This document shows positions 5,325 to 58,700 of a DNA stretch of 64,000 nucleotides, piece by piece; the first letter of the stretch is position 1; each line of letters starts with the position of its first letter. The position numbers and the translations under genes are program-made. The stretch spans positions 434,001-498,000 of the forward strand of contig NZ_JAAQPI010000004.1 in NCBI RefSeq assembly GCF_011683955.1, in the 5' to 3' direction. This DNA is from Pseudomaricurvus alkylphenolicus. GTDB taxonomy: Bacteria > Pseudomonadota > Gammaproteobacteria > Pseudomonadales > Cellvibrionaceae. The notes under the pieces were generated by a model. That model was not told the origin of the DNA. It ran no database searches and worked only from the letters and a program-made list of their open reading frames with translations.

Positions 5325-5364
5325 CGTTAGTACCTCTCAATACAGCCGTATATGTTTATGTTTT

Positions 5365-26331: not shown

Positions 26332-26639
26332 TAGCGGGCATCTCCTGTTTGATTGGCAACTGTTGTCACCGTGGGGTTTTCACCCATGGGGTACGACTCC
26401 AGAATTTGATAGCTGACCGTGTCGCGGGTGACATTAAAGTAGCGTCGACAACCGGTCTGGTGATACCACATTTCGTGATGCAAACCACGGGGGTTTTTTC
26501 GGAAAAACAAATAGTCTCCCCACTGCTCATCGCTCTGGGCTTCAGGCTCCGGCGGGCGCGCAATGTGAGCCTCGCCACTGTAGCTGAACTCCTCTTCCTC
26601 ACGAGTTTCGCGGCAATAGGGGCAGTAAATTTCTAACAC
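26331..26639 (-). CDS. soxD: Sarcosine oxidase, delta subunit
   Basis: A 102-residue zinc-binding subunit. CPYCRETREEEEFSYSG with the later His and GCRRYFNVTRDT gives the Cys3His site of the family. It lies 26 bases after soxB and overlaps soxA, in the standard order soxB-soxD-soxA-soxG. Confidence 0.95.
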   Translation of the reverse strand: MLEIYCPYCRETREEEEFSYSGEAHIARPPEPEAQSDEQWGDYLFFRKNPRGLHHEMWYHQTGCRRYFNVTRDTVSYQILESYPMGENPTVTTVANQTGDAR

Positions 26640-26665
26640 AATAAATATCCTCTAAAAGTCGCGAA

Positions 26666-27934
26666 TCAATGAGCCACACCGGCAGCGCCGTGCTCGTCGA
26701 TCAAAGCACCGCTGGAAAAGCGATCCAGACTAAAAGGCGCCGCCAGGGGATGAGGTCGGTCATTGGCAACGGTATCGGCAAACACAAAACCGGAACCAGG
26801 CGTGGCCTTAAAACCACCAGTTCCCCAGCCGCAGTTAAAATAGAGCCCATCGACCGATGTCTTGCTGATCACCGGGCAGGCATCGGGGCAGGTATCCACA
26901 ATGCCGCCCCACTGGCGGTTCATGCGAACCCGGCTGAAGGCGGGAAACAGTTCGCAAATGGCCTGCAGGGTGTGTTCGATGACGTGAAACGATCCCCGCT
27001 GACCGTAACCGTTGTAGGCATCGGTGCCGGCTCCAATCACCAGATCACCTTTGTCAGACTGGCTGATATAGCCGTGCACCGCATTGGACATCACCACGGT
27101 GTCGAGACAGGGTTTCAATGGTTCAGAGACCAATGCCTGCAGCGGTCGGGATTCCAGCGGAAGTCGCAATCCGGCCATGGCCGCCATCACACCGGAATTA
27201 CCCGCCGTGACACAGGCCACCTTGCGAGCACCAATAAAACCCTGAGTGGTTTCGACACCAATAACCGTCCCATTCTGGCGACGGATGCCGGTCACCTCGG
27301 TTTGCTGAATCAAGTCGACGCCTAATGCATCAGCACCCCGCGCATAGCCCCAGGCCACGGCATCGTGGCGGGCGGTGCCGCCGCGCGGCTGCCAGGAGGC
27401 ACCCAGTACCGGGTAACGGCAGTCGGGTGAGGTGTTTAACAAAGGTACGATGTCTTTGATCTGGGAAGGTGTCAGCACCTCACCATCAATACCGTTGAGT
27501 CGGTTGGCATTCACCCGGCGCTCGATGTCCCGCATGTCCTGCAGATTGTGCCCCAGGTTGAGCACACCGCGCTGGCTGAACATGACGTTAAAGTTCAACT
27601 CCTGGCTCAGCCCTTCCCAAAGTTTCATCGCCAGCTCGTACAGATGAGCAGCTTCGTCCCAGAGATAATTGGATCGGATAATGGTGGTATTGCGAGCGGT
27701 GTTGCCACCGCCCAGATAGCCTTTTTCCACCACCGCGACGTTGGTGATCCCATGTTCTTTGGCCAGATAGTAGGCCGTGGCCAGACCGTGGCCGCCACCG
27801 CCCACAATCACCACGTCGTAGTCGGTCTTGGGCTTGGGGTTACGCCACGCCCGCTGCCAGTTTTCGTGGTAGCTCAGGGCATTTTTGATGAGGCTCAGGC
27901 CGCTGTAGCGGGCCTTTGCAGAAGGCAGTTTCAT
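26666..27934 (-). CDS. soxB: Sarcosine oxidase, beta subunit
   Basis: A 422-residue flavoprotein. The FAD-binding loop [18 protein letters not shown], then [21 protein letters not shown], and a C-terminal [16 protein letters not shown] are all diagnostic. The beta subunit holds the amine oxidation site with covalent FMN. It is the first gene of soxBDAG-purU, whose promoter must lie in the 216-bp gap to the divergent GlxA-type regulator. Confidence 0.96.
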
Positions 27935-41073: not shown

Positions 41074-42720
41074 TTATTCCATCAATGCTGACACGGGACC
41101 GCTTTGCTCCAGGGAAAGCAGATGATGATATTTGTCCCACAGACTTGCTCGTTTGATCTTCAAGGTGTGAGTCAACAGGCCATTTTCGACACTCCACGGC
41201 TCGTCACAGACAATCACTCGCCCCATCTTTTCGTGGTTTTCAAGCTGGCTATTGAGTTCAACTGCCCAGGTTGCCAATGCTTGTTGGACCGATTCAGGGT
41301 CCATGGTTTGCGCTTCGGTGGAAAGCACGACCAGCATCACCGGCTGTGCCAGACCCAAGCCTTGCAGGCACAATTGGTCCACGTAAGGGTGTTTGGCAAA
41401 TTTTTCTTCAATGGGAACCGGAGCTACGTATTTGCCTTTTGCTGTCTTGAACAGCTCGCTGACTCGCCCCGTCAATGTGAGAAAACCATCTTCGTCAATC
41501 CTGCCCCGATCACCAGTGTGAATCCAGCCATCCACTATGGTTTTTGAAGTCTGCTCGGCATTCTTCCAATAGCCACTGAACAAATAAGGCGTTCGAGCCA
41601 GTACCTCACCTTCGGTGGAGATCTTTATCTGGCAACCGGCGATCGGCCTGCCAACGGTACCGGGCTTGCGAAAATCCGGATCGCTGGCGGTGGCCGGTAA
41701 TACTTCCGTTTGGCCCCAGACTTCACACAGTGGCAAACCCGCTTGCTCGTACCATTGGTGCAAGGAAACGGGTGTGGGGGCCGACCCCACCAAAGCGACC
41801 TTAACGCTGGACAGACCGAGAAAGTCTTTGACCTTGCGACCGGCCTCTACCGCCGTACTCCTGTCAGCAAACGCTTGTTCCAGCGTATCCCGACCAAACT
41901 CCGTCATCGCCCAGGTCTGAAAGTTGGCGTAGATTCGAGGCGCACCGAAAAACTGCGTCGGCCTGGCGTAGGCGACGTCAGACTGAAAGGTTTCCAGTGA
42001 ACGATTAAAGAAAACCTGACAGCCGCTGTACAGGGACGACCCCCAGACAATGACGCGCTCGGCGATATGACTCAAGGGCAGGTAGGAAAACAACCGGCCT
42101 CTTTCATTGGTCGCATAGTGGTCACTGTAGCCCTTGGACGCCTGGTAGAGAAAGTTGAGGCTGATCATTACGCCTTTGGGAAGACCTGTGGTTCCCGAGG
42201 TATAAACAATGGAGGTCAATTCCTCACTGCTTCTGGGCTTGATGGTTGCCAGTGGTTCGATCGAGTCCCAGATGTCATTGAGGCAATGCCTGCAATCGTT
42301 GACCGGACCATCTTCTGTTGCCAGCAACAGCAAGGATTCGGGCAGCGAGGCTTTTATGCTCTCCCAGTTCGAAGCCGGCCCAATAATCAGAGCTTGCATA
42401 TCGGAATGGTCAATTACGTATTGGACGGTATCCAGGTTCATGGTGGTAAATATTGAAACCGTGACATAACCAGCCATCATGTTCGCGAGATCAGCGATAC
42501 ACCAGCTGGGCGAGTTGTCGCTCAATATACCAATGCGAGCACCACGCTCTATGCCCTGTTGTTGGAGAAAACGGGCCAATTGCCTGGCTTTTTTGCCCAC
42601 GTCTGCACGGGTCAGCATTTCCCAATTGCCGGTAAGGTCCGGCTTGTGCAGGTAGGGCGCCTCAGGCGACTGCGCCTCAAACTGCAGAAAGCTATCCACG
42701 GTGTTGGTTATCTTGTTCAT
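41074..42720 (-). CDS. AMP-forming acyl-CoA ligase
   Basis: A 548-residue adenylate-forming enzyme. The phosphate loop is SIVYTSGTTGLPKGVM near residue 171, and the C-terminal ATP/AMP motif is GWIHTGDRGRIDEDGFL, then GRVSELFKTAKGKYVAPVPIEE, which is typical of long-chain or bulky-acid CoA ligases. It activates a free acid to acyl-CoA and is the entry step of the pathway inferred here. It is third in the minus-strand operon after thiolase and acyl-CoA dehydrogenase, with 35 bases to the dehydrogenase stop. Confidence 0.9.
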   Translation of the reverse strand: MNKITNTVDSFLQFEAQSPEAPYLHKPDLTGNWEMLTRADVGKKARQLARFLQQQGIERGARIGILSDNSPSWCIADLANMMAGYVTVSIFTTMNLDTVQYVIDHSDMQALIIGPASNWESIKASLPESLLLLATEDGPVNDCRHCLNDIWDSIEPLATIKPRSSEELTSIVYTSGTTGLPKGVMISLNFLYQASKGYSDHYATNERGRLFSYLPLSHIAERVIVWGSSLYSGCQVFFNRSLETFQSDVAYARPTQFFGAPRIYANFQTWAMTEFGRDTLEQAFADRSTAVEAGRKVKDFLGLSSVKVALVGSAPTPVSLHQWYEQAGLPLCEVWGQTEVLPATASDPDFRKPGTVGRPIAGCQIKISTEGEVLARTPYLFSGYWKNAEQTSKTIVDGWIHTGDRGRIDEDGFLTLTGRVSELFKTAKGKYVAPVPIEEKFAKHPYVDQLCLQGLGLAQPVMLVVLSTEAQTMDPESVQQALATWAVELNSQLENHEKMGRVIVCDEPWSVENGLLTHTLKIKRASLWDKYHHLLSLEQSGPVSALME

Positions 42721-42755: not shown

Positions 42756-43895
42756 TTACAGATCCAATGACTTGCCGATAATCATCTTCATCACTTCAGA
42801 GGTACCGGCAAAAATTCGGGTGATTCTGGCGTCGGCGTAGAGTCTCGATATTGGGTATTCATCCATATAGCCATGCCCGCCAAAGAACTGCAGACACTGA
42901 TCCACAACCTCGCCCTGCAGTTCACTGCAGATAAGCTTGGCGGTGGCCGCATCGGTTGAATCGACGCTGCCGTCGTTGATATCTTCCACTAGCCGATCGA
43001 GGTAGGCTTGGGCAATATCAAGTTTGGCCTTGAGCCCGGCGAGGGTAAATTGAGTGTTCTGATAGGCGCCCAGCGGCTTGTCAAATACCTGCCGATCCTT
43101 GACATACGCCAGGGTTTCTTCAAATGCATGAACCGCCGTTGCCAGATTCCAGATCGCAACAACGGCGCGCTCCTCAGCCAGACCGCTCATCAGATAGTAA
43201 AAACCCTTGCCCTGCTCTCCGATCAGGTTGCCTTTGGGGACCTTGACGTTGTCGAACACCAGCTCGGCGGTATCCTGCGAGTGCATACCCATCTTTTTGA
43301 GCTTGCGCCCCCTGGCAAAGCCCTCAACACCGGCCTCAACTACCAACAGACTGATCGCCTCTTTAGCTTGATCACTGGTGCGGGCGGCCACCACAAAGAC
43401 ATCGCCAATAACACCGTTGGAGATAAATATTTTGCTGCCGTTGAGAAGATAGTGGTCACCCATGTCTTTTGCGGTGGTCCGCATCCCCGCCAGATTGGAG
43501 CCGAAATCCGGCTCCGTCATGGCAATGGCAAGTACGCTTTCACCCCTGACGGCAGCGGGAATGTATTTTTCCTTTAACGCCTCACTGGCGTACTTCAGAA
43601 AGTAAGGAGCGACTATGGTATTGTGCAGATACACCAGCAACCCACTTTCGCCACAGAGCCCCATTTCCTCCGCCATGATCTGCTCGTAGCGAAAATCGTT
43701 TATTCCGAGTCCGCCCAGATTTTCCGGGGCTGCCGGAATCAGAAAACCATAGTCGCCGGATTTTTTCCAGACCTCTTTGGATACATAGCCCTGCTCAAGA
43801 AATTCGTCTCGACGCGGAACCACTTCCTGTTGCATAAATGCGCGAAACGACTCGCGAAAGATATTGTGCTCTTCTTCAAAAATTCGGCGTTGCAT
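42756..43895 (-). CDS. Acyl-CoA dehydrogenase
   Basis: About 379 residues from ATG 43895 (MQRRIFEEEH), five bases after the thiolase stop; the open frame to 43976 runs inside thiolase. FAD/substrate motifs are AIAMTEPDFGSNLAGM and GSKIFISNG. Near the C-terminus RIFAGTSEVMK lacks the Glu of the SCAD/MCAD base (YEGT in those), while EERAVVA near residue 240 offers a Glu at the position used by isovaleryl-CoA and long-chain dehydrogenases. That suggests branched or long substrates. It would desaturate the activated acid next to the CoA ester. Confidence 0.9.
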   Translation of the reverse strand: MQRRIFEEEHNIFRESFRAFMQQEVVPRRDEFLEQGYVSKEVWKKSGDYGFLIPAAPENLGGLGINDFRYEQIMAEEMGLCGESGLLVYLHNTIVAPYFLKYASEALKEKYIPAAVRGESVLAIAMTEPDFGSNLAGMRTTAKDMGDHYLLNGSKIFISNGVIGDVFVVAARTSDQAKEAISLLVVEAGVEGFARGRKLKKMGMHSQDTAELVFDNVKVPKGNLIGEQGKGFYYLMSGLAEERAVVAIWNLATAVHAFEETLAYVKDRQVFDKPLGAYQNTQFTLAGLKAKLDIAQAYLDRLVEDINDGSVDSTDAATAKLICSELQGEVVDQCLQFFGGHGYMDEYPISRLYADARITRIFAGTSEVMKMIIGKSLDL

Positions 43896-43900
43896 GATGC

Positions 43901-45082
43901 TCAAACCCTCTCGATAAGAACCGCCATACCCTGCCCCGCACCCAGGCACATGGATAAAATGGCGTAGCGCCCGCAAGTATCCGCCAGGTGATCCATAGCG
44001 GTCAGCGCCATACGCACACCGGTCGCCCCTGGCGGATGCCCGATGGATATGCCGCCGCCATAAAGATTGGTGCGCTCACGAGGAATGCCCAACTGCTGCT
44101 CCGCGTGCAGATTAACCACGGCAAAGGCTTCGTTGATTTCGAAATAGTCGATGTCTGCCACTGCCAGGTCGCGGCGTTGCAACAGATTGGCGATGGCCGG
44201 CACCGGGCCACATCCCATAATACGCGGGGGCACACCCACCACTTCCCAGTCGACGACTCGCGCTTTGGGAGACAAGCCATTGGCAACCGCGCTTTCGCGA
44301 TCTGCCACGATCACAAACGCGGCTCCGTCGGTCATACCACTGGCATTGCCCGCCGTTACGCGGCCGTTTTCCCGAAATGCAGGCCTAAGCGTCTTGAGTT
44401 TTTCCAGCGTGGTTTGCGGACGAGGAAACTCATCCTGTTCGAACAGGCGAGTGCCCCTTCGCTCAGGCACCTCGATCGGGGCGATCTGACGAGCCAGAAA
44501 TCCCGACTCCATGGCCGCAGCGGCGCGTCGCTGGCTGGTCAGTGCGTATTCGTCCATGGCCTCTCGCGTGTAGCCGAAATCATCGGCCAGGGCCTCGGCG
44601 GTCCCCCCCATCAAGGTCAGATCAAAAGGGTCACGATAGGCATAATCGATGGTGTCCACGACCTGACTGTTGCCGCGTTTCATGCCCCAGCGACTGTCCA
44701 CCAGTGCGTAGGGTGCACGCGAAGTATTTTCATAGCCACCGGCCAGTGCCACTCGACTGTGACCGGTGAGAATCTGCTCGGCCGCCGAAACAATAGCCTG
44801 GGTACCCGAGCCGCAGGCCCGTGATACGTTCAAAGCCCGACTGTCTTCCGCCATTCCCGCTTTCAGGGCGATCACACGACTGGCGTGGTAACCCCCCTGA
44901 TCCACCGGTACCACATTGCCACAGACCAGGTGGTCCACCTGTTGCGCTGAAAGATTCTCAGACGCCAGCGTCGCCTTGGCGGCATGCGCCGCCAGATCGG
45001 TACCGGCAATGGCGGCCAGGGATTTACCAAAATCTCCAAAGGGAGTGCGCTTTCCACCACACAAGACAATTTCTGTTTTCAT
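43901..45082 (-). CDS. Thiolase (acetyl-CoA acyltransferase)
   Basis: About 393 residues from ATG 45082 (MKTEIVLCGG, GGAG site upstream); the frame to 45160 enters the promoter box. The nucleophile Cys lies in RACGSGTQAIVSA. The active-site His loop is GGGISIGHPPGATG, and the second Cys is in CLGAGQGMAVL. It cleaves a 3-oxoacyl-CoA with CoA to acetyl- or propionyl-CoA. It is first in the operon thiolase - dehydrogenase - ligase - small ORF, whose promoter box (45153-45209) is shared with the mutase operon. Confidence 0.92.
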   Translation of the reverse strand: MKTEIVLCGGKRTPFGDFGKSLAAIAGTDLAAHAAKATLASENLSAQQVDHLVCGNVVPVDQGGYHASRVIALKAGMAEDSRALNVSRACGSGTQAIVSAAEQILTGHSRVALAGGYENTSRAPYALVDSRWGMKRGNSQVVDTIDYAYRDPFDLTLMGGTAEALADDFGYTREAMDEYALTSQRRAAAAMESGFLARQIAPIEVPERRGTRLFEQDEFPRPQTTLEKLKTLRPAFRENGRVTAGNASGMTDGAAFVIVADRESAVANGLSPKARVVDWEVVGVPPRIMGCGPVPAIANLLQRRDLAVADIDYFEINEAFAVVNLHAEQQLGIPRERTNLYGGGISIGHPPGATGVRMALTAMDHLADTCGRYAILSMCLGAGQGMAVLIERV

Positions 45083-45152: not shown

Positions 45153-45209
45153 TTAACCAAACAAGTATTTGTTTTTCTATTAGATCAAGTTTACCCCGGT
45201 TCGTCAAGT
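45153..45209 (-). promoter_or_regulatory. Promoter/operator box A, thiolase operon
   Basis: On the minus strand -35 TTGACG (45202-45207), 17-bp spacer, -10 TCTAAT (45179-45184). Directly downstream lies AAACAA-GTAT-TTGTTT on the plus strand (45159-45174), a perfect 6-bp-arm palindrome. The whole box matches box B (52354-52410) at about 47 of 57 positions, 34 of the first 37. A repressor here would block transcription start. The TetR gene begins 84 bases beyond. Confidence 0.75.
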
Positions 45210-45292: not shown

Positions 45293-45898
45293 ATGAGCGG
45301 CAAATCAACTTCGAGCTCCAAGACAACAACCAAAGCGAGACGCTCTCACAACCGCGTCCAACCGCTACTGGATGCTGCCGCCAAGTTATTTGCCACCAAG
45401 GGTTACAAAGAAACCACGATGCGTGACATCGGCTCAGAGATCGGCATGCTGCCGGGGTCGGTTTACTACCACTTCAAATCCAAACAAGAGTTACTGTTAG
45501 CGGTTTATGAACAGGCCGTCACGGGCATCAAGACTCGGTTGCTGGCTGCCATTGCTGACGAACAGGACCCCTGGCGAAAACTCGAAGTCGCTGTTGTCAC
45601 ACACACCGAGACCATCCTGGACCAAAATGACTATGCCCACGTGATGATCGGTGTGCTGCCCGACAAGGCACCTGAGATCCAGCAGGAGCTCACGGCCTTG
45701 CGAGACGGCTACGAAGCCATTTTGATTGAGCTGATCGATGAACTCCCCGTGCGAAAAGGTATCGATCGCAAGCTCTTGAGGCTCATGCTCTTAGGCGCCA
45801 TCAACTCCACTCAAATCTGGTATCAGGAAGGTACGATTTCGCCCGAGGAAATTGCACGTACCTTCGTAGGTTATATCAAAGATCCGGTCGCCAAATAG
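45293..45898 (+). CDS. TetR-family regulator of the mutase/thiolase operons
   Basis: A 201-residue TetR protein. The DNA-binding helices are VQPLLDAAAKLFATKGYKETTMRDIGSEIGMLPGSVYYHFKSKQELL; the C-terminal ligand domain has no named subtype. ATG 45293 is the first Met. It is divergent from the thiolase operon and faces box A. The AAACAA-N4-TTGTTT palindrome has the size and form expected of a TetR site, so this protein is the best candidate to bind boxes A and B, with an acyl-CoA as inducer. That link is inference. Confidence 0.9.
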   Translation: MSGKSTSSSKTTTKARRSHNRVQPLLDAAAKLFATKGYKETTMRDIGSEIGMLPGSVYYHFKSKQELLLAVYEQAVTGIKTRLLAAIADEQDPWRKLEVAVVTHTETILDQNDYAHVMIGVLPDKAPEIQQELTALRDGYEAILIELIDELPVRKGIDRKLLRLMLLGAINSTQIWYQEGTISPEEIARTFVGYIKDPVAK

Positions 45899-45905
45899 CC
45901 GACCG

Positions 45906-48050
45906 TCAATAGTTATAGCTCAGTTCGACCCCCCAGGTTCTTGGCGTGCCTCCCCAGGCGATACCGCCCAGTACGTTCAAGCCCCAGGTAAAGTGCTCTT
46001 CATCGGTCAGGTTTTTTCCGAACAGGGCAACCCCCCATTTGTCGTCTTCACTCAGAAAACGAACGCTTGCCGACACATCCTCGAAAGACGGTGAATCAAT
46101 AAAATTACCATCGTCGAGTTTCATTTCTGCCGTGTGGCTGTAACTGATTCGAGACACCAGCACACCCCAATCCGCCACTTCCTGTTCATGAGTTAACGCC
46201 AGCATAATTTGCTGATCGGGTACTCGGCCAAACTCCAGGTCCTTCGCCTCCGGGTCCACAGTGCCATCGCCATCAATGTCAAAGTTATCGTAGCTGTCGT
46301 AGGATGCATCGGTGTAGCCGTAGTTGAGGTTTAACACAAGATTGTCCAGTAGCTGCGCCGTCAACTCTAGCTCAGCCCCTGCTATGGTCGCCGCAGCCGC
46401 ATTGAGTGTCGTTTGCAACAAGGTCACTGGATCAACAACGGTGCGCTGGAGATCGTCATAGGTGTTGTAATAGATAGCGGCGTTAACTCTCAGGCGATCG
46501 TCCAAAAAGTCCGCCTTCACCCCCAACTCAAAGGCATCGACAATCTCTTCGTCATAAGGTGTCGTCAGCGGTGACCCGCGCATGGCAAATCCCCCGCTGC
46601 GAAAGCCCCGGGTAGCCGTACCGAAGAGCAGCACATTCTCAGCGGCCTGGTAGGATAAACTCACTTTCGGGGAAAAGTTGGTCCACTGCTCACTGTCTTG
46701 CGGGCCAAAGATACAGTCCATGACAACATCCGCATTGGGGTCACAAAACCCAGGGGTTGCCGCTGCACCAAAGGCAGCTGTGCGGGCTGTTTTTTCTTCC
46801 CTGGTATAACGCCCACCCAGATTGAGTGTCAGAGCGTCTGACAAATTGATATCCACATCTGCAAAAACGCCTTTGGAATTGTGGTCAAGCTTTGCTTGAG
46901 TGTTAACGTTCACCACCGGGTTTCTTTGCTCGACGTAATCCCAGGACTGTTTAAAATAATAGGCGCCGACCGTAAAGCGATAGTTATCCGAGAACTCAGA
47001 AGCGTAGCGAATTTCCTGACTGAATTGATCCTGATCCAAAGCTGCGGACTGTGAGAATATGTCGGCCGACATTGCGTCTATATCCACGCGATCCCGAGCA
47101 TCTACCGCTCGATAGCCGGTGACTGATGTCAGGGTACCGTGACCCAAATCGTAGTTGACTTCCAGGGCATAGAAGTTGACGTCGCCATCCGTCAAACCTT
47201 CATCGCCCTGGTTGGTGGTAAATTTTTTTCGATCAGAATCGCTTAGCTGGAAGGTCACACCGCCATCACCTTCATTGCTGTACTTTTCAGCGATGAGCGT
47301 GAGATCCAGCTCATCGGAGGGTGTGTACTTCAATACACCCCGCAGCATTCTCGATTCGGACTCTCCCGATTCCCCACCCAGCGAGTTATTGCGAATATAC
47401 CCGGATCGATTCTTATCCTGGACAGCTACTCTGACTGCAAGCTTATCCTCTAAAATCGGAGCCTCGAGGTAGCCGGCAAAGTCACTTCTCCCATAGCTGC
47501 CTGCGGTTATCTTTCCACCAAAGCCAAAGTCGCCGCTCGGCCGGGCTGATCGAACATTAAATGCACCAGCGGTAACATTGCGACCAAACAGCGTTCCTTG
47601 AGGACCACGAAGAATTTCAACCGACTCCAGATCGTACGAATCAAGCAACCCACCATAGTTTACGCCCCAGAAAACACCGTCTTGAACGAGGCCCGCGGTA
47701 GGTTCATCAGTCGGTACAGAACCACTCAGCCCCATGCCTCGTATAAAGACATTGGCCACACCGGCTCGTGTACCTGCGTTTTCAACCTCAACATTGGGTG
47801 ACAGGTCTCCGAGATCAGCAAGGTTCTCAGCAAAGACGGCCTCCATTTGTGAGCTTCCGAATACCGATGCCGATACGGGTACATCCTGGAGGCTTTCGGC
47901 AGCCGCCCTCTTCCTTGCTGTAACCACCACCTCTTCTAATAAACTGTTGATGGTACTGCTTGAGTAGACGTCCGCAGATGTCAAGGATATCGCGCCAAAG
48001 ATGGCTACACTCAAGGCGGTTTTTGTACTCAGATCGCTCTTTATTTTCAT
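45906..48050 (-). CDS. TonB-dependent outer-membrane receptor 3
   Basis: A 714-residue receptor with a signal region, TonB box EEVVVTARKR, plug motifs (NVFIRGMGLSGSVPTD, GLVQDGVFWG, VEILRGPQGTLFGRNVTAGAFNV) and a barrel ending in WGVELSYNY. It lies 112 bases after the AraC gene that ends the mutase operon and is convergent with the TetR gene. It may bring in the substrate of the mutase/ligase pathway; its own promoter was not identified. Confidence 0.9.
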   Translation of the reverse strand: MKIKSDLSTKTALSVAIFGAISLTSADVYSSSTINSLLEEVVVTARKRAAAESLQDVPVSASVFGSSQMEAVFAENLADLGDLSPNVEVENAGTRAGVANVFIRGMGLSGSVPTDEPTAGLVQDGVFWGVNYGGLLDSYDLESVEILRGPQGTLFGRNVTAGAFNVRSARPSGDFGFGGKITAGSYGRSDFAGYLEAPILEDKLAVRVAVQDKNRSGYIRNNSLGGESGESESRMLRGVLKYTPSDELDLTLIAEKYSNEGDGGVTFQLSDSDRKKFTTNQGDEGLTDGDVNFYALEVNYDLGHGTLTSVTGYRAVDARDRVDIDAMSADIFSQSAALDQDQFSQEIRYASEFSDNYRFTVGAYYFKQSWDYVEQRNPVVNVNTQAKLDHNSKGVFADVDINLSDALTLNLGGRYTREEKTARTAAFGAAATPGFCDPNADVVMDCIFGPQDSEQWTNFSPKVSLSYQAAENVLLFGTATRGFRSGGFAMRGSPLTTPYDEEIVDAFELGVKADFLDDRLRVNAAIYYNTYDDLQRTVVDPVTLLQTTLNAAAATIAGAELELTAQLLDNLVLNLNYGYTDASYDSYDNFDIDGDGTVDPEAKDLEFGRVPDQQIMLALTHEQEVADWGVLVSRISYSHTAEMKLDDGNFIDSPSFEDVSASVRFLSEDDKWGVALFGKNLTDEEHFTWGLNVLGGIAWGGTPRTWGVELSYNY

Positions 48051-48161: not shown

Positions 48162-49154
48162 TCAGTGCTTTCTCATGGTCTCACTGGGCGTACAACCATA
48201 GACTTCTTTATAGGCACGGGAAAAGTGACCAAAGCTGGCGACACTGTATTTGTGTAATATATCGGCTACCTGTTCTCCGGCGGCGCAGTTACGCAGTTCC
48301 TCGTGAATGGCACGAATGCGCTTATTGGTGATATATTCTTTAGGGGTCTTACCGGTATAGGTTTTAAAGCCTTTCTGTAAGGTTCGCGTGGAGACACATA
48401 CCGCTGCAGCCAACTCAGACAGGGAAATAGACTGCCTCAGGTGCTCTTCGATATAAGTGATAGCGCTACGAACATGCCTGGGGTTTTTGAGCACCGTTTC
48501 GCGCTTTAGAAAATGGCTGTAGTTATGTGGCTGGATATCCAGGAGCAACGACATCAACATCTTGTTAACCGACTGCAAAAAATGCTCGCTCGCCCCGACG
48601 TCGCCAAACAGTGACAGTTGCTCGCAGAAATACAAAAGACTGCGCAGCCATGACTGACTGTGTTCGTTTCCATCCGGCATACTCAAGTCAAAAACCAGGG
48701 GTTGTTTGATATCGGCGTTAAGTAACTGACAAAGATGCTGCTCCAGAGCTTCCCGTTCAAACAAAATGGTCAACCGGCGACTCCCGCGCCACAAACGCAT
48801 CCGGTAGTTCTCAGAAGGAGAGATAACAACGGTTGAGCCCTTTACGGTTTGCGCTCGGTTGCGTTTGCTTTCGACTTCCGTGCACCCGGCCAATGTGGTC
48901 TGGGTAATAAAGCAGTCGCTCTGCTCGGGCAGTATTTCTATATCTTCGCCATAGGAACTGCAGAACAGCTTGGTGCCATAAAAGGAGATGCCATTCAACT
49001 GTGTAGCGGTGTTGGTTCGTCGGCCAATAACATCAAGCTTATGCGGACTGAGTTTTCGGACCACGAAGTCTTCTACCGCGTCGATGTCGGTCGATTGAAA
49101 CATTGGATAACCGGTCAGGAGCATCGCATGATCATTATTCATCGTGTTCACCAT
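48162..49154 (-). CDS. AraC-family regulator
   Basis: A 330-residue regulator with an AraC_binding_2-like N-terminal region and a C-terminal double helix-turn-helix (SISLSELAAAVCVSTRTLQKGF; YSVASFGHFSRAYKEVYGCTP). It starts 20 bases after the MeaB stop, making it the fourth gene of the mutase operon, and precedes TonB receptor 3, a likely target. A second layer of control by pathway substrate is plausible. Confidence 0.85.
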   Translation of the reverse strand: MVNTMNNDHAMLLTGYPMFQSTDIDAVEDFVVRKLSPHKLDVIGRRTNTATQLNGISFYGTKLFCSSYGEDIEILPEQSDCFITQTTLAGCTEVESKRNRAQTVKGSTVVISPSENYRMRLWRGSRRLTILFEREALEQHLCQLLNADIKQPLVFDLSMPDGNEHSQSWLRSLLYFCEQLSLFGDVGASEHFLQSVNKMLMSLLLDIQPHNYSHFLKRETVLKNPRHVRSAITYIEEHLRQSISLSELAAAVCVSTRTLQKGFKTYTGKTPKEYITNKRIRAIHEELRNCAAGEQVADILHKYSVASFGHFSRAYKEVYGCTPSETMRKH

Positions 49155-49173: not shown

Positions 49174-50133
49174 TTAAAGTATTGCTCCGTACCGAATGCG
49201 AATAAGATCGGTAATCGCCTTCTCGTTGTCGCAGTTGCCTTCAATAACTGCAGTAATAATGCTGGCGGATTCGGGGCTGGTGTCGCCCTGCAACCAGCAC
49301 TTAAGCTGTTCGGCAGCCTGTTGCGCCAGTAATCGGCGGGTACGGTCCAACAAGCGCTCACTCTTGCTGGCGTTAAACTTCGACTGTGATTGACTGCCGA
49401 TGGCCGACACCAATTCCTCGATGCCCGATCCCGCCGTGGCGATGGTGCTGACAACCGGCACCTGTTGCGACTCTTCCCTGCGCAACTGCAGCATTGCTTT
49501 TAGCTGGCGTTCCGTGCGCTGCGCCAGAGGCGAGTCGGCCTTGTTAACCACCAGCACATCGGCGATTTCGAGAATGCCGGCTTTAATGGCCTGCACGTCA
49601 TCACCCAGGCCCGGTGCGTTAATCACCACGTTAATATCTGCGACCTCGGCCACTTCAGTTTCGGACTGCCCGGCGCCGACGGTTTCCAGAATCACCACAT
49701 CCCAACCGGCGGCATCGATCAGATCAACAACCCGGAGCACACTGGCCGACAATCCGCCCAAGTGACCGCGGGCAGAGAGCGAGCGAATAAACACGCCTGG
49801 GTCATCCGTGTGTTCGCCCATTCGGGTGCGGTCACCCAGCACCGAGCCGCCGCTGATCGGGCTGGAGGGATCAACCGCCACCACGGCTACGCGTTTATCC
49901 TGACCGCGCAGTTCTGTGATCAACGCGTTAATCAGCGTTGACTTGCCGGCACCGGGCGGCCCGGTGATGCCTATCACTTCCGCCTGGCCCGTAAACGGGC
50001 GAACGGCGTGATGCAGGGCATTACCGACATCCGCATGGGAGTCCACAAGACTGATGGCCCGCGCCAGCGAGGCCACCTCGCCGTTGCGCAGTCGCGACAG
50101 CAGGTTATCGACATAGTCGCTCACTTTGCTCAT
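49174..50133 (-). CDS. meaB: MeaB/ArgK-type mutase chaperone GTPase
   Basis: About 319 residues from ATG 50133, which has GGGAGG upstream; the frame to 50160 overlaps the mutase stop. The G1 loop is GITGPPGAGKSTLINAL and the G3 region VDPSSPISGGSVLGDRTRM is distinctive of MeaB. VNKADSP gives the base-recognition motif. MeaB loads adenosylcobalamin and protects B12 mutases from inactivation. Its place directly after the mutase large subunit confirms the B12 assignment. Confidence 0.93.
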   Translation of the reverse strand: MSKVSDYVDNLLSRLRNGEVASLARAISLVDSHADVGNALHHAVRPFTGQAEVIGITGPPGAGKSTLINALITELRGQDKRVAVVAVDPSSPISGGSVLGDRTRMGEHTDDPGVFIRSLSARGHLGGLSASVLRVVDLIDAAGWDVVILETVGAGQSETEVAEVADINVVINAPGLGDDVQAIKAGILEIADVLVVNKADSPLAQRTERQLKAMLQLRREESQQVPVVSTIATAGSGIEELVSAIGSQSQSKFNASKSERLLDRTRRLLAQQAAEQLKCWLQGDTSPESASIITAVIEGNCDNEKAITDLIRIRYGAIL

Positions 50134-50149: not shown

Positions 50150-51832
50150 TTACGCCACAATCAGCGGATGACCGAAACCCAATTCCTCGCGCAGCAGCGC
50201 AATGATCTCGCCATGGGTTGCGCCCACTTCCGCGGCTTCCACCACTCGCGCAAACACATTTTCATCATCGCTGTTGGCGGCGCGGGTGAGATTATCAAGC
50301 GCCTTGTTGATCGCTTGCTGGCTGCGGCCCTCCTTAAAGGCTTTGAAGTTGTCGATATGGGCCTGCATTTTAATCGGATCCGGGCGACTGGTCGCTACTT
50401 GCTCACCGCTGTCCTCGTCGTCCCGGTAGCAGTTTACGCCGACGATTTTCTCTTCCCCGGTTTCGATCTGCTCCTGACGCGCCATGGCGGATTCCCCAAT
50501 CATGCTCTGCACCAAACCGGTTTCAACGGCTTTGTACATACCGCCGGCGGCATCGACCTTTTCCATCACTTTCAGAATCTCTGCTTCCATCTGATCGGTA
50601 AGGCGCTCCACATAATAGGAACCGCCCAGAGGATCGATCACATCACACAGGTGCGCTTCTTCCCGCAGGATATTTTGGGTGGCCACCGCGATCTTGGCGG
50701 TCTCTTCGGTCGGGCAGGTGATGGGCTCGTCATAGGCATCGGTATGCATGGACTGAATACCGCCGAAGATGCCGGACATGGCTTGTACCGCCACTCGGGC
50801 AATATTATTGAGCGGCTGTTGGGCGGTCAGATCCACACCGGAGGTTTGGCCGTGAAACTTGAAGCGCCAGGAACGCGGATCTTTGGCGCCAAGGCGGTCG
50901 CGGGTAATGCGAGCCCAGATTCGACGCGCAGCTCGGAACTTGGCCACCTCTTCAAAGAAGCTGATAGAGATATCAAAAAAGAAAGTAAAACGCGGCAGAA
51001 TCGAATCCGGATCCATACCACGAGCGATACAGTCTTCGGCGTGCTGGATCGCCGAAGAGAAGGTAAAGGCAATCGTCTCCGCGGGCGTCGCACCCGCCTG
51101 TTGCATGTGCTGCCCCACTATCGACATAGGATTCCAGTTGGGCACATGCTCGCGACAGTACTCGATATGGTCCACCAACACCCGGCGCGACCCCGGCAAT
51201 GACAAGCGGTAGAACATATGGTTGGCCACAAAGTGGGAGATATAGTCACTCTGGTTGGAAGTGCCGGTAATCTTGTCCCAGGAAATCCCCCGGCGCTTGG
51301 CCACATTGAGCATAAAGGCAAACAAGGTAAACGGCGACGGATCGTTCATGGCCGCTGAAATCTGGTCCAGGGGAACACCATCGAGGCAAGTATCCATATG
51401 ATCAACGGTATTAACCACTGTGCCGCAGGTGCCCAGCAAAGGCAGGGGAACTGTATCGCAATCCACTCCACGGAAACCGGAGTTACAGGGCAACAGGCTG
51501 ATGGCATTGGCCCCCAGATTCAAAATGGACCGCACTCGCTCGTTATAGTCATCCGGCGTGCCTAAACCAATCAGCTGGCGCTGGGTCCAGGTGCGGCCGC
51601 GGTGCATGGTGGGGTAGATGCCCCGGGTGTAGGGGAACTGACCGGGAAAGCCCTGTTTATCCAGATACTGAGCTTGATCCGGTAACTGTTCCGGGGTATA
51701 GAGCGGCTCGATTTCGATGCCGGATATATTCTTGATAACGCGGTCATTGGAGCCGATTTGTTGGGCGTATTCCGACTGCCACTGTGCCTGCGCCTGTTTG
51801 ACGCCTTTACTGTTTTTCTCGTAACTGCCCAT
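50150..51832 (-). CDS. B12-dependent acyl-CoA mutase, large subunit (non-canonical)
   Basis: A 560-residue TIM-barrel subunit of the methylmalonyl-CoA mutase superfamily: [24 protein letters not shown] (His242, equivalent of the catalytic His244), [26 protein letters not shown] and [10 protein letters not shown]. The two substrate-selecting positions differ from all types I know. RQLIG has Leu87 where methylmalonyl-CoA mutase has Tyr89 (RQYAG), isobutyryl-type has Phe and 2-hydroxyisobutyryl-type has Ile. FVAN has Ala203 where those have Arg207 (VRN), Gln or Gln. The Arg that holds a free carboxylate is thus lacking, so methylmalonyl-CoA is unlikely. The B12 domain is a separate gene 2 bases upstream. 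Confidence 0.9.
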
Positions 51833-51834
51833 CT

Positions 51835-52296
51835 TTAACCCCCGAATGCCTGTTGTTTCTTCTCACGAGATTCTGCCGCCAGACCTTTTGCACACTCGAC
51901 GATATCGTCGCGCTGGGAGCCCGGTCCAAAAATGGCGCGCACGCCGGCTTTCAACAACATGGGGCGCTCCTGCTCAGGAATAATGCCGCCGACAAATACC
52001 TCCACGCTATCCAACCCCGCCTCGCGCAGCGCCGCCATCATTTCGGGGATGATCAGATGGTCTGTCGCCAAGGAGCTGATACCGATCAGGTCCACATCCT
52101 CCTGCAGGGCCAACTGCACCACGGACTGAATCTCTTGCCACGGTGGCGTGTAAATCACCTCCATGCCGGCATCGCGCAAGTAGGCCGCCACGATGCGGCT
52201 GCCGCGATCATGGCCATCCAGGCCAATTTTGGTGATCAAGGCACGCGCGGGACTGCCCTCAAGGTTGTGGGAGGTGACGGTAAGCGGTTGATTCAT
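51835..52296 (-). CDS. B12-binding small subunit of the acyl-CoA mutase
   Basis: A 153-residue cobalamin-binding domain. GLDGHDRG carries the DxHxxG motif whose His ligates cobalt; [10 protein letters not shown] and [13 protein letters not shown] complete the usual SxL and GG elements. It is first in the mutase operon, directly before the large subunit, as in split isobutyryl- and 2-hydroxyisobutyryl-CoA mutases. Transcription begins at box B 58 or more bases upstream. Confidence 0.93.
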
Positions 52297-52353: not shown

Positions 52354-52410
52354 TTAACCAAACAACTATTTGCTTTTCTATTGGATCAAGATTTGAGCGC
52401 GTCGTCAAGT
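52354..52410 (-). promoter_or_regulatory. Promoter/operator box B, mutase operon
   Basis: On the minus strand -35 TTGACG (52403-52408), 17-bp spacer, -10 TCCAAT (52380-52385), then AAACAA-CTAT-TTGCTT on the plus strand (52360-52375). Layout and sequence match box A at the thiolase operon, including TTAACC at one end and TCGTCAAGT at the other. The rest of the gap 52411-52607 holds no gene I can support. Confidence 0.75.
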
Positions 52411-54467: not shown

Positions 54468-54663
54468 CTTCAGGTTAAGTGAATATCAATAAACATGAAT
54501 ATTATTAGCCTTAAGACTGGCTTAACATACCATTGAATTCTGGAGAAGGCCTAGAATTCACGGGTTAATATCGTGCGTTTAGGCTCAGAATCAACATCGT
54601 GAATATTTCCAATAATAACTTTCAACTTGTTACACGAGTTTCAGCCGAGGAGAAACGATAGTG

Positions 54664-56805
54664 ATGAAGAAACCCACGTTGAATGCCATGGCCAGTGCCC
54701 TTGTAGTGATGGCAGTTTCCACCCCTGCCGCTTATTCGTTTGAGCTTGAAGAAATTGTGGTTACTGTGAACAAGCGCGAGGAAAACCTGTTGGATGTGGC
54801 CGGTTCAGTGCAGGTTCTCAGTGCGGATATGGTTCAGGATTTCAAGCTGGATGACGTAGACGCCGTGGTCGACTTGGTGCCCAACGCGACGTTCAATGCC
54901 GCGCCCAGTGGTACACCGGTGATCGCAATAAGAGGCCTGGGCACTCGGCCAGGATCGGCCATGCTAGAGCAGGACGTAGGTCTGTTTGTTGATGGCGTTT
55001 GGCTGGGACGCAACAACCAATTGCAAGCAGCGCTGATGGATGTTCAAACCATTGAGGTGTTGAAAGGCACGCAAGCCACCTTGTACGGGCGCAATACGCT
55101 TGCCGGCGCAGTGAGCGTTACCACGAAAAAGCCGGGCGATGAGTTGGAGGGCTATTTGAAAGTCGGCTATGAGTTTGAGAACGACTCAAGCACTGTGGAA
55201 GGCGCGGTGAGTATTCCGGTGAGCGACAAGTTTTCGTTGCGTTTAGCCGCCAATTACGAGGACCAAGACGGCTGGGTTCAGAACACTACTCTGGACCGTG
55301 AAGAGCCTGAAGCGGAAAATAGTACCGTCAGGCTGACTGGTGTGTATAACACCGATAATGACTGGGCTATAACGGGTAAAGTACAGGCTACCAATAAGGA
55401 GCGAGTGGGCAATAGCTTCGTGCGATCTACAGGAGAATATGACGGTTCGACGGAGTTTGCCCCAAGTGTTTTCCCTACCCCCGCCGGAGTCGGCTATGAT
55501 GAAAATGCAGCTGGAACCCAAATCACAGTACCGATAATAGACCTCAAAGATGTCGGCACTGAAGTCGACTTCACGGACTGGTCTCTGCAATTTGACATTC
55601 CGCTGGGCGAACACACTCTGACGTCGGTGACAGCTGCTGGAGAAATGGAACTGGAGACTGTGTTTGATGTGTTTCTCCGTACCCCTGGTCCCCGCGTCAT
55701 CGGCTATTTTGACGAAGATTACGAGCAGTTTACTCAAGAAATCAGATTGACGTCTCCTGCCGGTGAAAAATTGGATTACATTGTGGGTTTGTACTATGTC
55801 GATCAAGCCATCGATCGCTTGACTTTTCAATATGTCAACGCTGCTGACCGCTTCTGGTATGGCGAACAGGATATGAATTCCTGGGCCGCTTTTGCCAGTG
55901 GTACTTTGTCGATCAGTGACTCCGTCCGAATTATTGCTGGTGCTCGCTATACTGATGAAACCAAAGAGGCTGATGTGATTGTCCATGGTCAACAGGAGGC
56001 CGATGCCGAATTTGGGTATAGACGTGAGACTATCGACGAAACGTTTCTGAATGGCTCAGTCACACTTGAGTGGGATGCTACAAGTAATGCCCTGGTATTT
56101 GCGGGTGTTGCAAAGGGCACCAAGTCCCCAGGCTTGGCGGATGGCGCCGCGATCCCAACGAACGCACAATACCTCGCGTCGTCCTCTCTGTTTATCCCAA
56201 AGGAAGAGGTCGTGACCGTAGAAGTGGGTGTTAAGTACGAGATGGAGAACGGCTACATCAATGCCACCTTATTCAACATGAATGTATCAGATTTCCAGAA
56301 TGCGGCTTTCGTTAATGGTGAAATTCAAATTGGCTCGTTTGACATGAGTATCGTCGGTCTGGAGGTTGATACTTTCCACTACTTGACTGAACAAGTCAGC
56401 TTGTCCGTTGGACTCGGCCTATTAGATGCCGAGAACGACGATACCGGGTCAGACGTTACCAGTGCTCCGGAGTTTTCAGCAAACGTGACCTTGGCCTATG
56501 AAACTGAAGAATGGATCAGTGGATTTTCCAACCGCGCCAGCTTAAACGCCAACCATAAGTCGTCACATTTCCTCAATGCTGTTAGCAATCCGAATAATGA
56601 GATTGATGCAGTAACCTTATTCAACGCGAGCTTAACACTTTCTCATCTTGCCTCAGGCGTTGATGTCTCCTTGTATGGAAAAAACCTCACAGATGAAGAG
56701 TATGCTGATTTCGCTTTTGGTGGACAGGCATTTCTTGGAACTGAGCACATGTATAGTGCGGCGCAAGGGCGGACCTTGGGTCTAGAGTTAACGTTCAACT
56801 TCTAA
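54664..56805 (+). CDS. TonB-dependent outer-membrane receptor 4
   Basis: A 713-residue receptor from ATG 54664 (a GTG at 54661 is also in frame; GAGGAGA lies upstream of both). Signal peptide to about AAYS, TonB box LEEIVVTVNKR, plug motifs VIAIRGLGTRPGSAM, LFVDGVWLGR and IEVLKGTQATLYGRNTLAGAVSV, and a barrel ending in LGLELTFNF. It is followed by a hairpin and then by sulfatase, DUF485 and sodium:solute symporter genes, so it probably imports a sulfated organic compound. Confidence 0.9.
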   Translation: MKKPTLNAMASALVVMAVSTPAAYSFELEEIVVTVNKREENLLDVAGSVQVLSADMVQDFKLDDVDAVVDLVPNATFNAAPSGTPVIAIRGLGTRPGSAMLEQDVGLFVDGVWLGRNNQLQAALMDVQTIEVLKGTQATLYGRNTLAGAVSVTTKKPGDELEGYLKVGYEFENDSSTVEGAVSIPVSDKFSLRLAANYEDQDGWVQNTTLDREEPEAENSTVRLTGVYNTDNDWAITGKVQATNKERVGNSFVRSTGEYDGSTEFAPSVFPTPAGVGYDENAAGTQITVPIIDLKDVGTEVDFTDWSLQFDIPLGEHTLTSVTAAGEMELETVFDVFLRTPGPRVIGYFDEDYEQFTQEIRLTSPAGEKLDYIVGLYYVDQAIDRLTFQYVNAADRFWYGEQDMNSWAAFASGTLSISDSVRIIAGARYTDETKEADVIVHGQQEADAEFGYRRETIDETFLNGSVTLEWDATSNALVFAGVAKGTKSPGLADGAAIPTNAQYLASSSLFIPKEEVVTVEVGVKYEMENGYINATLFNMNVSDFQNAAFVNGEIQIGSFDMSIVGLEVDTFHYLTEQVSLSVGLGLLDAENDDTGSDVTSAPEFSANVTLAYETEEWISGFSNRASLNANHKSSHFLNAVSNPNNEIDAVTLFNASLTLSHLASGVDVSLYGKNLTDEEYADFAFGGQAFLGTEHMYSAAQGRTLGLELTFNF

Positions 56806-56816
56806 CTACCCAATTC

Positions 56817-56855
56817 GGGAAATTTACTTTCTTTGCTTGAAGGAGTAAATTTCCC
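56817..56855 (+). terminator. 12-bp hairpin between TonB receptor and sulfatase
   Basis: GGGAAATTTACT and AGTAAATTTCCC are perfect inverted arms around a 15-base loop, 12 bases after the receptor stop. There is no U-run, so it may be a partial terminator or an mRNA-processing site that lowers expression of the sulfatase genes. Confidence 0.55.
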
Positions 56856-56966
56856 CTCGCCATCCCCGGTAAAATTTCCAACTTAATATTGTGCGGTTAT
56901 TAACCATAGTTGCCCTCCTCTCGCGCAACCGAATCTGACAAGCTGTTGGGAAATAGGACAATCAAA

Positions 56967-58700
56967 ATGCTTTTTCGAATACCCATAACACTAGCCTTTT
57001 TCGTGTTGTTCACTTCTATGTGTTCAGGTCAGGAAGACCGATTAGACACCCATAGGCCCAATGTACTTATCATCGTTGCTGATGATTTGGGCTATTCTGA
57101 TCTGGGAAGTTTTGGTGGAGAAATAAAAACGGAGAATATGGACATCTTGGCTCACAGGGGAATTCAGTTAACCAACTTTTATGCTGCCCCCACGTGCTCG
57201 CCGAGTCGAGCGATGTTACTGTCGGGAACGGATAATCATTTGGTGGGGCTGGGGACTCAAAAATATTATTGGTCTGAAGAGCAAAAAGGACGACCTGGTT
57301 ACGAAGGCCAGCTGAATAATCGTTTTGTCACTATCGCCACTCGGTTCAAAGATGCCGGTTATCATACCTATATGGCTGGAAAGTGGCATTTGGGATACGA
57401 CCGCGAGAGTTACCCCTCTGCCCGCGGCTTCGAGGAGAGCTTTGCGTTATTGGAGGGAGGTGCTAGTCACTTCGACCAAAGGGGTGTAATTTCGAAAGCT
57501 CCAAAAGCCAACTACCGAAAGAATGGTCAGGCGGTGGATTTGCCGAAAAATTTTTTCTCCTCCGAGTTTTATACGGATACCTTGATCAATAACATCGAAC
57601 GTAATCGCCAGGATGGAAAACCGTTTTTTGCATACGCCGCCTATACTGCACCGCACTGGCCACTACAGGCTCCGGCAGAGTTCAGTGACAAGTACAAACA
57701 CATTTATGATGTTGGCTATGAAGCCATTGCTGAAGCTCGACTAAAAAGAATGAAGGAAAAGGGCATACTATCGGAATATACCCTAGCGAATCCGGGCACG
57801 GCCTATTATCCTCAATGGAAACAATTGACCACTGCTCAGAAGGTCAGAGAAGCGCGATTGATGGAAATCTATGCCGGCATGGTGGAGTCTCTGGATTTTC
57901 ACATCGGTCGATTGATTACCTATCTTGAGGATACGGGCGAGCTGGACAACACCGTTATTTTTTTTATGTCCGACAATGGCGCTGAAGGAAGTAATCCGCT
58001 GGATATTCGGGCAGGAAAAACACCGAATTCAAGTTGGATACCTGAAAATTTTGATAACAGTTTGGAAAACCTGGGTAAGGCTGGCTCCTATGTGTCCGTT
58101 GGTCCAGGCTGGGCTCGTGTGAGTAGTACGCCATATCGATTGCACAAGGGATTTACAACAGAGGGAGGAATAAAGGTGCCTGCCTTTATTTACTACCCAA
58201 AGATGGCGAGGTCGACCGCAATCTCCAGTGAGTTTATCACGGTCCGGGACATCGCACCGACATTGATGGAGCTGGCGGGACTTGAGCCGAGTCTGAATTC
58301 CTATCAGGGACGCAAGGTTTTACCGGTAACGGGAAAGAGCCTGATTAAACACCTTTGGGGAAAAGAGCGTTCTGTCCACGGTGAACAATTCACAGCGGGC
58401 TGGGAATTATTTGGCCGTCGGGCAATCCGTTACGGCACTTGGAAGATGATCTGGCTTAACGAACCTTGGGGAAAGGAGGTTTGGGAGCTTTACGACCTGG
58501 CGAACGATCCAGGCGAGATGAACGACCTTGCTGCTGCTCGCCCGGACATCGTCAAGAAACTCAATTCTCACTGGGAAAGCTACGTCAGGCAGAATGAAAT
58601 GGTTGTGGTGGATAAGGTGGATATCCTCTATACCAACGGGAGGTCTCATTATCAAGAGAACCCCAACAAGCCACTTGAGAACACGTCGATAAATTACTAG
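56967..58700 (+). CDS. Exported sulfatase (arylsulfatase type)
   Basis: About 577 residues from ATG 56967 (AGGA upstream). MLFRIPITLAFFVLFTSMCSG is a signal peptide or poor lipobox. NVLIIVADDLGYSDLGSFGG binds calcium, CSPSR is the formylglycine site (Cys type), and YHTYMAGKWHLG the second signature. The C-terminal part has RYGTWKMIWLNEPWGKEVWELYDL. It removes sulfate from an ester in the periplasm or at the membrane; it needs a formylglycine-generating enzyme encoded elsewhere. The receptor before and symporter after fit import, desulfation and uptake of the freed acid or alcohol. Confidence 0.92.
   Translation: MLFRIPITLAFFVLFTSMCSGQEDRLDTHRPNVLIIVADDLGYSDLGSFGGEIKTENMDILAHRGIQLTNFYAAPTCSPSRAMLLSGTDNHLVGLGTQKYYWSEEQKGRPGYEGQLNNRFVTIATRFKDAGYHTYMAGKWHLGYDRESYPSARGFEESFALLEGGASHFDQRGVISKAPKANYRKNGQAVDLPKNFFSSEFYTDTLINNIERNRQDGKPFFAYAAYTAPHWPLQAPAEFSDKYKHIYDVGYEAIAEARLKRMKEKGILSEYTLANPGTAYYPQWKQLTTAQKVREARLMEIYAGMVESLDFHIGRLITYLEDTGELDNTVIFFMSDNGAEGSNPLDIRAGKTPNSSWIPENFDNSLENLGKAGSYVSVGPGWARVSSTPYRLHKGFTTEGGIKVPAFIYYPKMARSTAISSEFITVRDIAPTLMELAGLEPSLNSYQGRKVLPVTGKSLIKHLWGKERSVHGEQFTAGWELFGRRAIRYGTWKMIWLNEPWGKEVWELYDLANDPGEMNDLAAARPDIVKKLNSHWESYVRQNEMVVVDKVDILYTNGRSHYQENPNKPLENTSINY

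Follow-up and report, generated by a model that had tools for sequence, protein, structure and literature searches.

Which acyl-CoA does the B12-dependent mutase encoded at this locus of Pseudomaricurvus alkylphenolicus rearrange, and with which other genes does it work? The whole stretch of DNA analyzed (hereafter the window) is 64,000 nucleotides long, and a first-pass annotation of it had proposed a working mutase for an uncharged, branched acyl-CoA, naming a pivalyl-like substrate as one possibility. The best explanation of the data, to which we assign a joint probability of roughly 0.6, is an AdoCbl-dependent mutase whose acyl-CoA substrate has a quaternary alpha carbon (pivalyl-CoA or one of its close homologs being the likeliest) and which stands in one TetR regulon with a chain-shortening operon. 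Within this explanation we infer the substrate, the direction of the reaction, binding by TetR and the cooperation of the two operons.

An intact mutase operon

Three close-set open reading frames (ORFs) on the reverse strand (52296-49174) encode a small subunit, a large subunit and a MeaB-type GTPase (Table 1). All three genes are real and intact. The MM_CoA_mutase domain of the large subunit scored 564.5 bits against a Pfam cut-off of 22.1, and inspection of the small subunit identified its DGHDRG as the DxHxxG motif. The length given for MeaB is counted from an ATG, whereas the automatic ORF list has a longer TTG start. An AF2 model of the large subunit (pLDDT 80, pTM 0.83) was compared with known structures using Foldseek: the best E-value (2.6e-38) was to 2-hydroxyisobutyryl-CoA mutase (HCM; PDB 4r3u) and the highest TM-score (0.86-0.87) to the fused isobutyryl-CoA mutase IcmF. 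The TIM-barrel domain and fold, the DxHxxG motif and the catalytic His together identify an AdoCbl-dependent acyl-CoA mutase. The first-pass annotation was also right that the catalytic machinery is preserved, with His242 found in 80/80 rows of the family alignment, DGHDRG in the small subunit and GPPGAGKST in MeaB.

Table 1. Coordinates of the mutase locus, the neighbouring genes and the shared element, in positions of the window.
Feature	Position	Strand	Details
AMP-forming acyl-CoA ligase	41074..42720	-	548 aa; Pfam AMP-binding 3.3e-62
Acyl-CoA dehydrogenase, LCAD-like	42756..43895	-	Pfam Acyl-CoA_dh_1 2.9e-42
BktB-like thiolase	43901..45082	-	393 aa from ATG (ORF list: longer TTG start); TIGR01930 406.8 bits, over cut-off
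Shared 37-bp element, operator-like palindrome core 45156-45173	45153..45189		between TetR and thiolase
TetR-family regulator	45293..45898	+	NCBIfam TetR-type matches, none over cut-off
TonB-dependent receptor, candidate outer-membrane uptake	45906..48050	-	Pfam TonB_dep_Rec_b-barrel 8.9e-43; membership uncertain
AraC-type regulator, directly downstream of MeaB	48162..49154	-	typed by eye from ORF; membership uncertain
MeaB-type GTPase chaperone	49174..50133	-	319 aa; Pfam MeaB 6.1e-86; TIGR00750 over cut-off; GPPGAGKST
Mutase large subunit	50150..51832	-	560 aa; Pfam MM_CoA_mutase 2.6e-169
Mutase small (B12-binding) subunit	51835..52296	-	153 aa; Pfam B12-binding 1.7e-22; TIGR00640 over cut-off; DGHDRG
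37-bp element, second copy, core 52357-52374	52354..52390		57 bp upstream of small-subunit start

Substrate-pocket residues

To place the pocket residues, the large subunit was aligned by phmmer against PDB chains, by MAFFT with HCM and methylmalonyl-CoA mutase (MCM), and by hhalign (19 family rows against 11 MCM rows). MCM residue numbers follow the P. shermanii enzyme, and counts out of 80 refer to the best 80 of 180 relatives confirmed in a scan of GTDB genomes. The first-pass annotation had set Leu87 (in RQLIG) opposite MCM Tyr89, and the alignments agree: this position is Tyr in 20/20 MCM rows, Ile in HCM and Leu in 80/80 family rows. Its second assignment, Ala203 as the equivalent of the substrate arginine Arg207, was mistaken. 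All three aligners insert one residue at Asn193, so that Arg207 matches Asn204 (and Q194, D196 and F201 match MCM Q197, D199 and F204), while Ala203 aligns with Val206 of MCM and an Ala of HCM. Asn204 occurs in 80/80 family rows; HCM has Gln. Two further departures had been overlooked: the position of MCM Tyr243 is Gln241 (80/80), and the MCM loop FDLA reads PCNS in the family (P115, C116 and S118 each in 80/80 rows, N117 in 77/80).

Altogether, none of the 80 family rows departs from Leu87, Pro115, Cys116, Asn204, Gln241 and His242; the corresponding residues in 20/20 MCM rows are Tyr, Phe, Asp, Arg, Tyr and His, respectively. Because these residues are invariant in relatives from several phyla, the change of the pocket is not a matter of chance. 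Loss of the arginine makes binding of a free carboxylate unlikely, and the smaller Leu/Asn pair and the absent Tyr243 would be consistent with room for extra methyl groups. The protein thus has Leu87 and Asn204 in place of both the Tyr89/Arg207 of MCM and the Ile/Gln of HCM, and it falls apart from the two HCM rows in the tree described below; identity as either enzyme was rejected on pocket residues and clade.

Distribution of the family

The best 80 of the 180 relatives were 63-80% identical to the window protein. Their loci were surveyed by tblastn with annotated references (≥35% identity over at least half the length), which replaced a longest-ORF census prone to antisense noise on GC-rich contigs. 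A small-subunit homolog was found in 76/80 loci and a MeaB homolog in 71/80, some contigs ending early. By record titles and tree labels, relatives belong to Pseudomonadota, Actinomycetota, Myxococcota, Nitrospirota, Acidobacteriota, Rokubacteria, Thermodesulfobacteriota and the SAR324 cluster, many of them as metagenome-assembled genomes (MAGs), which places the mutase in seven phyla or more; six plasmid records hold further members at ≥60% identity. In a tree of 110 rows (quick method, SH-aLRT support only, with long stems, one long unplaced row and no isobutyryl-CoA mutases among the rows), 87 family rows fell on one side of a single branch (support 100), apart from 20 MCM and 2 HCM rows, and the window protein was sister to that of a Halieaceae MAG (support 99).

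The gene is nonetheless uncommon and patchy in distribution, since no close copy (E 1e-150 or better) was found in any of 397 other Pseudomonadota genomes drawn evenly from the phylum, and relatives within the genus, family and order yielded only distant matches. Matches occurred in 20 of 57 such genomes, the best in each being 34-38% identical, a degree of similarity seen with MCM and other mutases; in each of the five genomes from the same genus there was one match of this kind. The P. alkylphenolicus genome itself (8.88 Mb in 70 contigs) has one other MM_CoA_mutase gene, a fused MCM on a different contig, so that the canonical enzyme for which the first-pass annotation had advised a search is present. 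Its central proposal, a mutase for an uncharged branched acyl-CoA and not for methylmalonyl-CoA, finds support in the invariant pocket, the separate clade, the small-large-MeaB trio and this separate canonical MCM.

Relation to known mutases

The closest characterized system is probably a dedicated isovaleryl-CoA/pivalyl-CoA mutase (PCM) with separate subunits from Xanthobacter autotrophicus Py2, reportedly described by Kitanishi, Cracan and Banerjee in the Journal of Biological Chemistry in 2015. We take Xaut_5043 of plasmid pXAUT01 to be the protein that was assayed. The plasmid carries, in the order TetR, small subunit, large subunit and MeaB (Xaut_5045 to 5042), a trio like that of the window. 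Its large subunit shares 72% identity with the window protein, lies in the same 87-row clade and has the same pocket residues. The window genes therefore share with PCM the clade of the Py2 protein, separate alpha and beta subunits and a MeaB. The loci differ in that a Liv-type importer and a 659-aa ligase adjoin the Py2 operon, whereas the window has a separate thiolase/dehydrogenase/ligase operon, a TonB receptor and an AraC-type gene of its own. The enzyme type has thus very probably been described before. Among the papers listed in a literature search of limited coverage, none describes a dedicated pivalyl-CoA mutase or this mutase family. The novelty suggested by the first-pass annotation is reduced accordingly (the family is wide and has an ortholog on the Py2 plasmid), while the non-MCM pocket stands. 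If PCM is indeed the Py2 protein, the present analysis adds an operator, a probable regulon of two operons, a link to a carboxylase and the correction of one pocket residue, for none of which an earlier account was found in the same limited search.

Other mutases are more distant. MCM shares the fold, the catalytic His and the B12-binding motif, but its Tyr89, Arg207 and Tyr243 are replaced in the window protein, which is 37% identical to the host's own MCM. IcmF (PDB 4xc6, and 5cjw with pivalyl-CoA) has the same fold and the top TM-score to the model, but is a single fused chain of ~1,100 residues with 27-28% identity; its B12 domain, GTPase and mutase lie in one chain, whereas the window has three separate ORFs. 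HcmAB (PDB 4r3u), which gave the best Foldseek E-value, likewise has separate small and large subunits and a MeaB-like protein, but is only 33% identical, has Ile/Gln in place of Leu87/Asn204, and retains the tyrosine of GYH where the window protein has Gln241. Its operon also differs in having its own ligase and a GntR regulator (PMC7176365).

A second operon and a shared operator-like element

A thiolase/acyl-CoA dehydrogenase (ACAD)/ligase operon lies ~4 kb beyond MeaB, divergent from the TetR gene (Table 1). The thiolase scored 428.5 bits with PRK09051, under the cut-off, and its best PDB match was BktB (4w61). The ACAD matched 2pg0 (345.6 bits) and LCAD 8w0t (319.2 bits) above isovaleryl-CoA dehydrogenase 1ivh (235.2 bits), leaving identity as an isovaleryl-CoA dehydrogenase unsupported. 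Thiolases 59-78% identical to that of the window occurred in 5/80 family loci (L023, L025, L050, L058 and L101) and on a Sphingobium plasmid; the second-best match in the P. alkylphenolicus genome is 43% identical. In 1 of the 397 other Pseudomonadota genomes (L131) a thiolase matched at E 1e-140 or better, a bar that differs from ≥59% identity, and no mutase was noticed by eye among the ORFs neighbouring it. By the census thresholds, homologs of the window ACAD were present in 5/80 family loci and those of the ligase, TonB receptor and AraC regulator in 0/80, while a TetR homolog (≥35% identity) was present in 63/80.

The two operons of the window share an upstream 37-bp element. Its two copies have the same orientation, differ at three positions and lie 57 and 70 bp from start codons; over the best 36-base stretch 33 bases are identical (maximum of 25 in 300 shuffles), and at ≤3 mismatches there are exactly two copies in the 8.88-Mb genome (control: 0). 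In relatives, the palindrome AAACN4GTTT was found within ~200 bp upstream of TetR in 35/61 tested family loci, for an expectation of 0.23; the test excluded 19 of the 80 loci (17 for want of a TetR match, 2 with too little upstream sequence). The exact core was absent upstream of TetR in the remaining 26/61 tested loci, and those that have it are proteobacterial, plus one Nitrospira MAG. Neither palindrome of the window is exact, each being one base off. With a matrix built from the sites of other genomes, the window copies nevertheless ranked first and second in the 64 kb. At 18.5 and 18.1 bits they fall slightly short of even the weakest training site (18.6 bits); the third match, inside the BCCT gene, scored 17.3 bits. 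No operator match was found in the closest relative (L023) or on the Sphingobium plasmid. A Bradyrhizobium locus (L032) had a further site just upstream of the start of its ligase/Liv operon. The shared element suggests that the mutase and thiolase/ACAD/CoA-ligase operons form one regulon, and we infer that TetR would bind these putative operators.

Carboxylase-linked loci and the host liu operon

The neighbourhoods of relatives vary. In the plasmids of Xanthobacter Py2, Roseovarius THAF8 and Diaphorobacter, the operon has genes for a Liv-type ABC importer and a CoA ligase as neighbours, and single importer components were found in 13 to 23 of the best 80 loci. In addition to its family member, plasmid pXAUT01 encodes a separate mutase that resembles HCM (83% identical to the HCM sequence). 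The Diaphorobacter plasmid (L112) has, a short way from its family member, a second mutase-family gene (near 24665-25656), of which 302 residues could be compared with HCM (47% identity). On the plasmid of Sphingobium sp. YC-XJ3, two very similar modules of TetR, small subunit, large subunit and MeaB with thiolase and ligase, sharing several protein accessions, are separated by IS6100 and IS1380-like transposases; this doubling is probably a recent duplication and perhaps mobile.

On Pseudosulfitobacter and Sulfitobacter plasmids, the mutase operon is directly followed by genes for a hotdog thioesterase, a TetR, a carboxyltransferase, a hydratase, a biotin carboxylase and an ACAD. The two Roseobacter plasmid modules are near-identical (same MeaB accession), and the linkage to a carboxylase should be counted as effectively one event; homologs of the carboxyltransferase were found in 0/80 family loci and of its biotin carboxylase in 1/80 (L068, 40%). 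Against the PDB, the carboxyltransferase matched the bacterial methylcrotonyl-CoA carboxylase (MCC) at 589 bits and the human one at 586, compared with 428 bits for geranyl-CoA carboxylase (GCC), which makes the latter identity less likely, and 261 or less for most chains named as propionyl-CoA carboxylase. Three chains outscored MCC: AccD1 (612.5 bits), 9tps (596.8) and an unspecified carboxyl transferase (595.8). Two of these bear propionyl-CoA names (AccD1 "acetyl-/propionyl-CoA carboxylase" and 9tps "propionyl CoA carboxylase beta"), though we take AccD1 to be an MCC subunit. The ACAD of these plasmids is LCAD-like (298 bits, against 231 for isovaleryl-CoA dehydrogenase), and identity as an isovaleryl-CoA dehydrogenase is unsupported. 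An MCC-like cluster would be expected if the product of the mutase were isovaleryl-CoA or a homolog, but the adjoining dehydrogenase is not isovaleryl-CoA-dehydrogenase-like.

The best match to the plasmid carboxyltransferase in P. alkylphenolicus (54%) lies within a liu operon (contig C23) that comprises a MerR-like ORF, an ACAD, a carboxyltransferase, a hydratase-like gene, a biotin carboxylase and an HMG-CoA-lyase-like ORF (MerR, hydratase and lyase named by eye). Judged from its gene content the operon is apparently complete, and its dehydrogenase is by sequence a clear isovaleryl-CoA dehydrogenase (668 bits with 4o5m); it could consume isovaleryl-CoA. Together with the carboxylase-linked plasmid loci, this operon lends support to the earlier idea of a pivalyl-like substrate. 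Across host contigs C1, C11, C18, C21, C23 and C70 there are at least five pairs of MCC/GCC-like carboxylase genes (the biotin-carboxylase match on C1 has one internal stop), which suggests wide branched-chain or isoprenoid catabolism.

Proposed route and alternative readings

In the route that we propose, the AMP-forming ligase would activate a longer tert-alkyl or gem-dimethyl acid, and beta-oxidation by the ACAD and thiolase would shorten the chain, from which the co-regulated thiolase could release pivalyl-CoA. The mutase would act at the point where the lack of an alpha hydrogen blocks beta-oxidation: the 5'-deoxyadenosyl radical would take a hydrogen from a methyl group next to the quaternary alpha carbon, the thioester carbonyl would migrate onto the methyl-derived carbon and the hydrogen would return, converting pivalyl-CoA to isovaleryl-CoA, (CH3)3C-CO-SCoA -> (CH3)2CH-CH2-CO-SCoA. 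MeaB would load and guard the cofactor, and isovaleryl-CoA would pass to the host liu operon for degradation. IcmF is reported to interconvert pivalyl- and isovaleryl-CoA (PMC10481361, PMC9974510), and such a rearrangement has been proposed for the degradation of pivalic acid (PMC2847961).

The enzyme might instead act on some other bulky uncharged acyl-CoA and accept pivalyl-CoA only as a side substrate, if at all; the acid could, for instance, be a quaternary one that bears an aryl group or a ring and derives from alkylphenols, terpenoids or steroids. Such a role would suit a pocket in which far more than two positions differ from MCM and HCM, a second operon whose ligase, LCAD-like ACAD and BktB-like thiolase point to a longer chain, a host with at least five MCC/GCC-like carboxylase gene pairs, and a Sphingobium plasmid on which a thiolase and another ligase accompany the mutase. 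We consider it rather unlikely, however: the active site is invariant across neighbourhoods of differing type (Liv transporter, thiolase, plasmid carboxylase), many of which share the operator, and this suggests one common acyl-CoA; moreover, the linked carboxyltransferase resembles MCC more closely than it does geranyl-CoA carboxylase.

A diverged methylmalonyl-, isobutyryl- or 2-hydroxyisobutyryl-CoA mutase would have the same fold and the observed 33-37% identity to MCM and HCM rows, but is highly improbable when Arg207 and Tyr89 are absent from 80/80 family rows, a canonical MCM is encoded elsewhere in the host genome, and the family forms a clade separate from MCM and HCM (in a tree without isobutyryl-CoA mutase); on pXAUT01, the presence of a separate HCM-like mutase beside the family member indicates that the two roles are separate there. 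We give equally little credence to the reverse direction, from isovaleryl-CoA to pivalyl-CoA or a tert-alkyl starter for biosynthesis. The reaction type is reversible, IcmF interconverting both compounds (PMC10481361), and pivaloyl-CoA has been supposed to be a starter for tert-butyl polyketides (PMC5355916), yet the neighbouring genes seem catabolic (CoA ligases, Liv-type importers, ACAD, thiolase, carboxylase), and no polyketide genes were noticed by eye among the larger ORFs of the window.

Other genes in the window

Several further gene groups were observed. Successive YCF48-like, DUF1329 and DUF1302 genes (2699-7191, reverse strand) lie beside an 812-aa ORF (236-2674, reverse strand) that matched no Pfam family at 1e-15 but by eye resembles an RND/MMPL transporter. 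Such a set occurs in degraders of steroids and other hydrophobic compounds. Genes for a sarcosine-oxidase-like alpha subunit and an FAD oxidoreductase (22662-27934, reverse strand) are a few kb from a BetT-type BCCT transporter (32101-34074, reverse strand), and perhaps form a betaine/sarcosine catabolism island with it. The gene at 34092-36131 (reverse strand) encodes a protein whose N-terminal half contains TPR repeats and whose C-terminal half contains a sulfotransferase domain. At 54661-58700 (forward strand), an ORF for a TonB-type receptor (by eye) is followed by a Pfam sulfatase, a candidate pair for uptake and desulfation.

Implications

Quaternary carbons halt beta-oxidation, and to our knowledge few enzymes that remove this block have been described. 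The corrected replacement of the substrate arginine, Asn204, matters for the re-engineering of these mutases, and the invariant pocket, the recognizable operator and the pathway context together make quaternary-carbon degraders searchable in genomes by sequence. A regulon that links chain shortening to a B12-dependent rearrangement is testable. A wider reading, which we offer tentatively and at somewhat less than even odds, is that TetR senses a tert-alkyl acyl-CoA and switches on both the ligase/ACAD/thiolase module, which would beta-oxidize neo- or gem-dimethyl chains to pivalyl-CoA, and the mutase that leads to leucine catabolism. If this is true, the occurrence of the mutase in at least seven phyla, and of the operator in many of its proteobacterial loci as well as in one Nitrospirota MAG, would mean that acids with quaternary carbons exist in nature and serve widely as a source of carbon.
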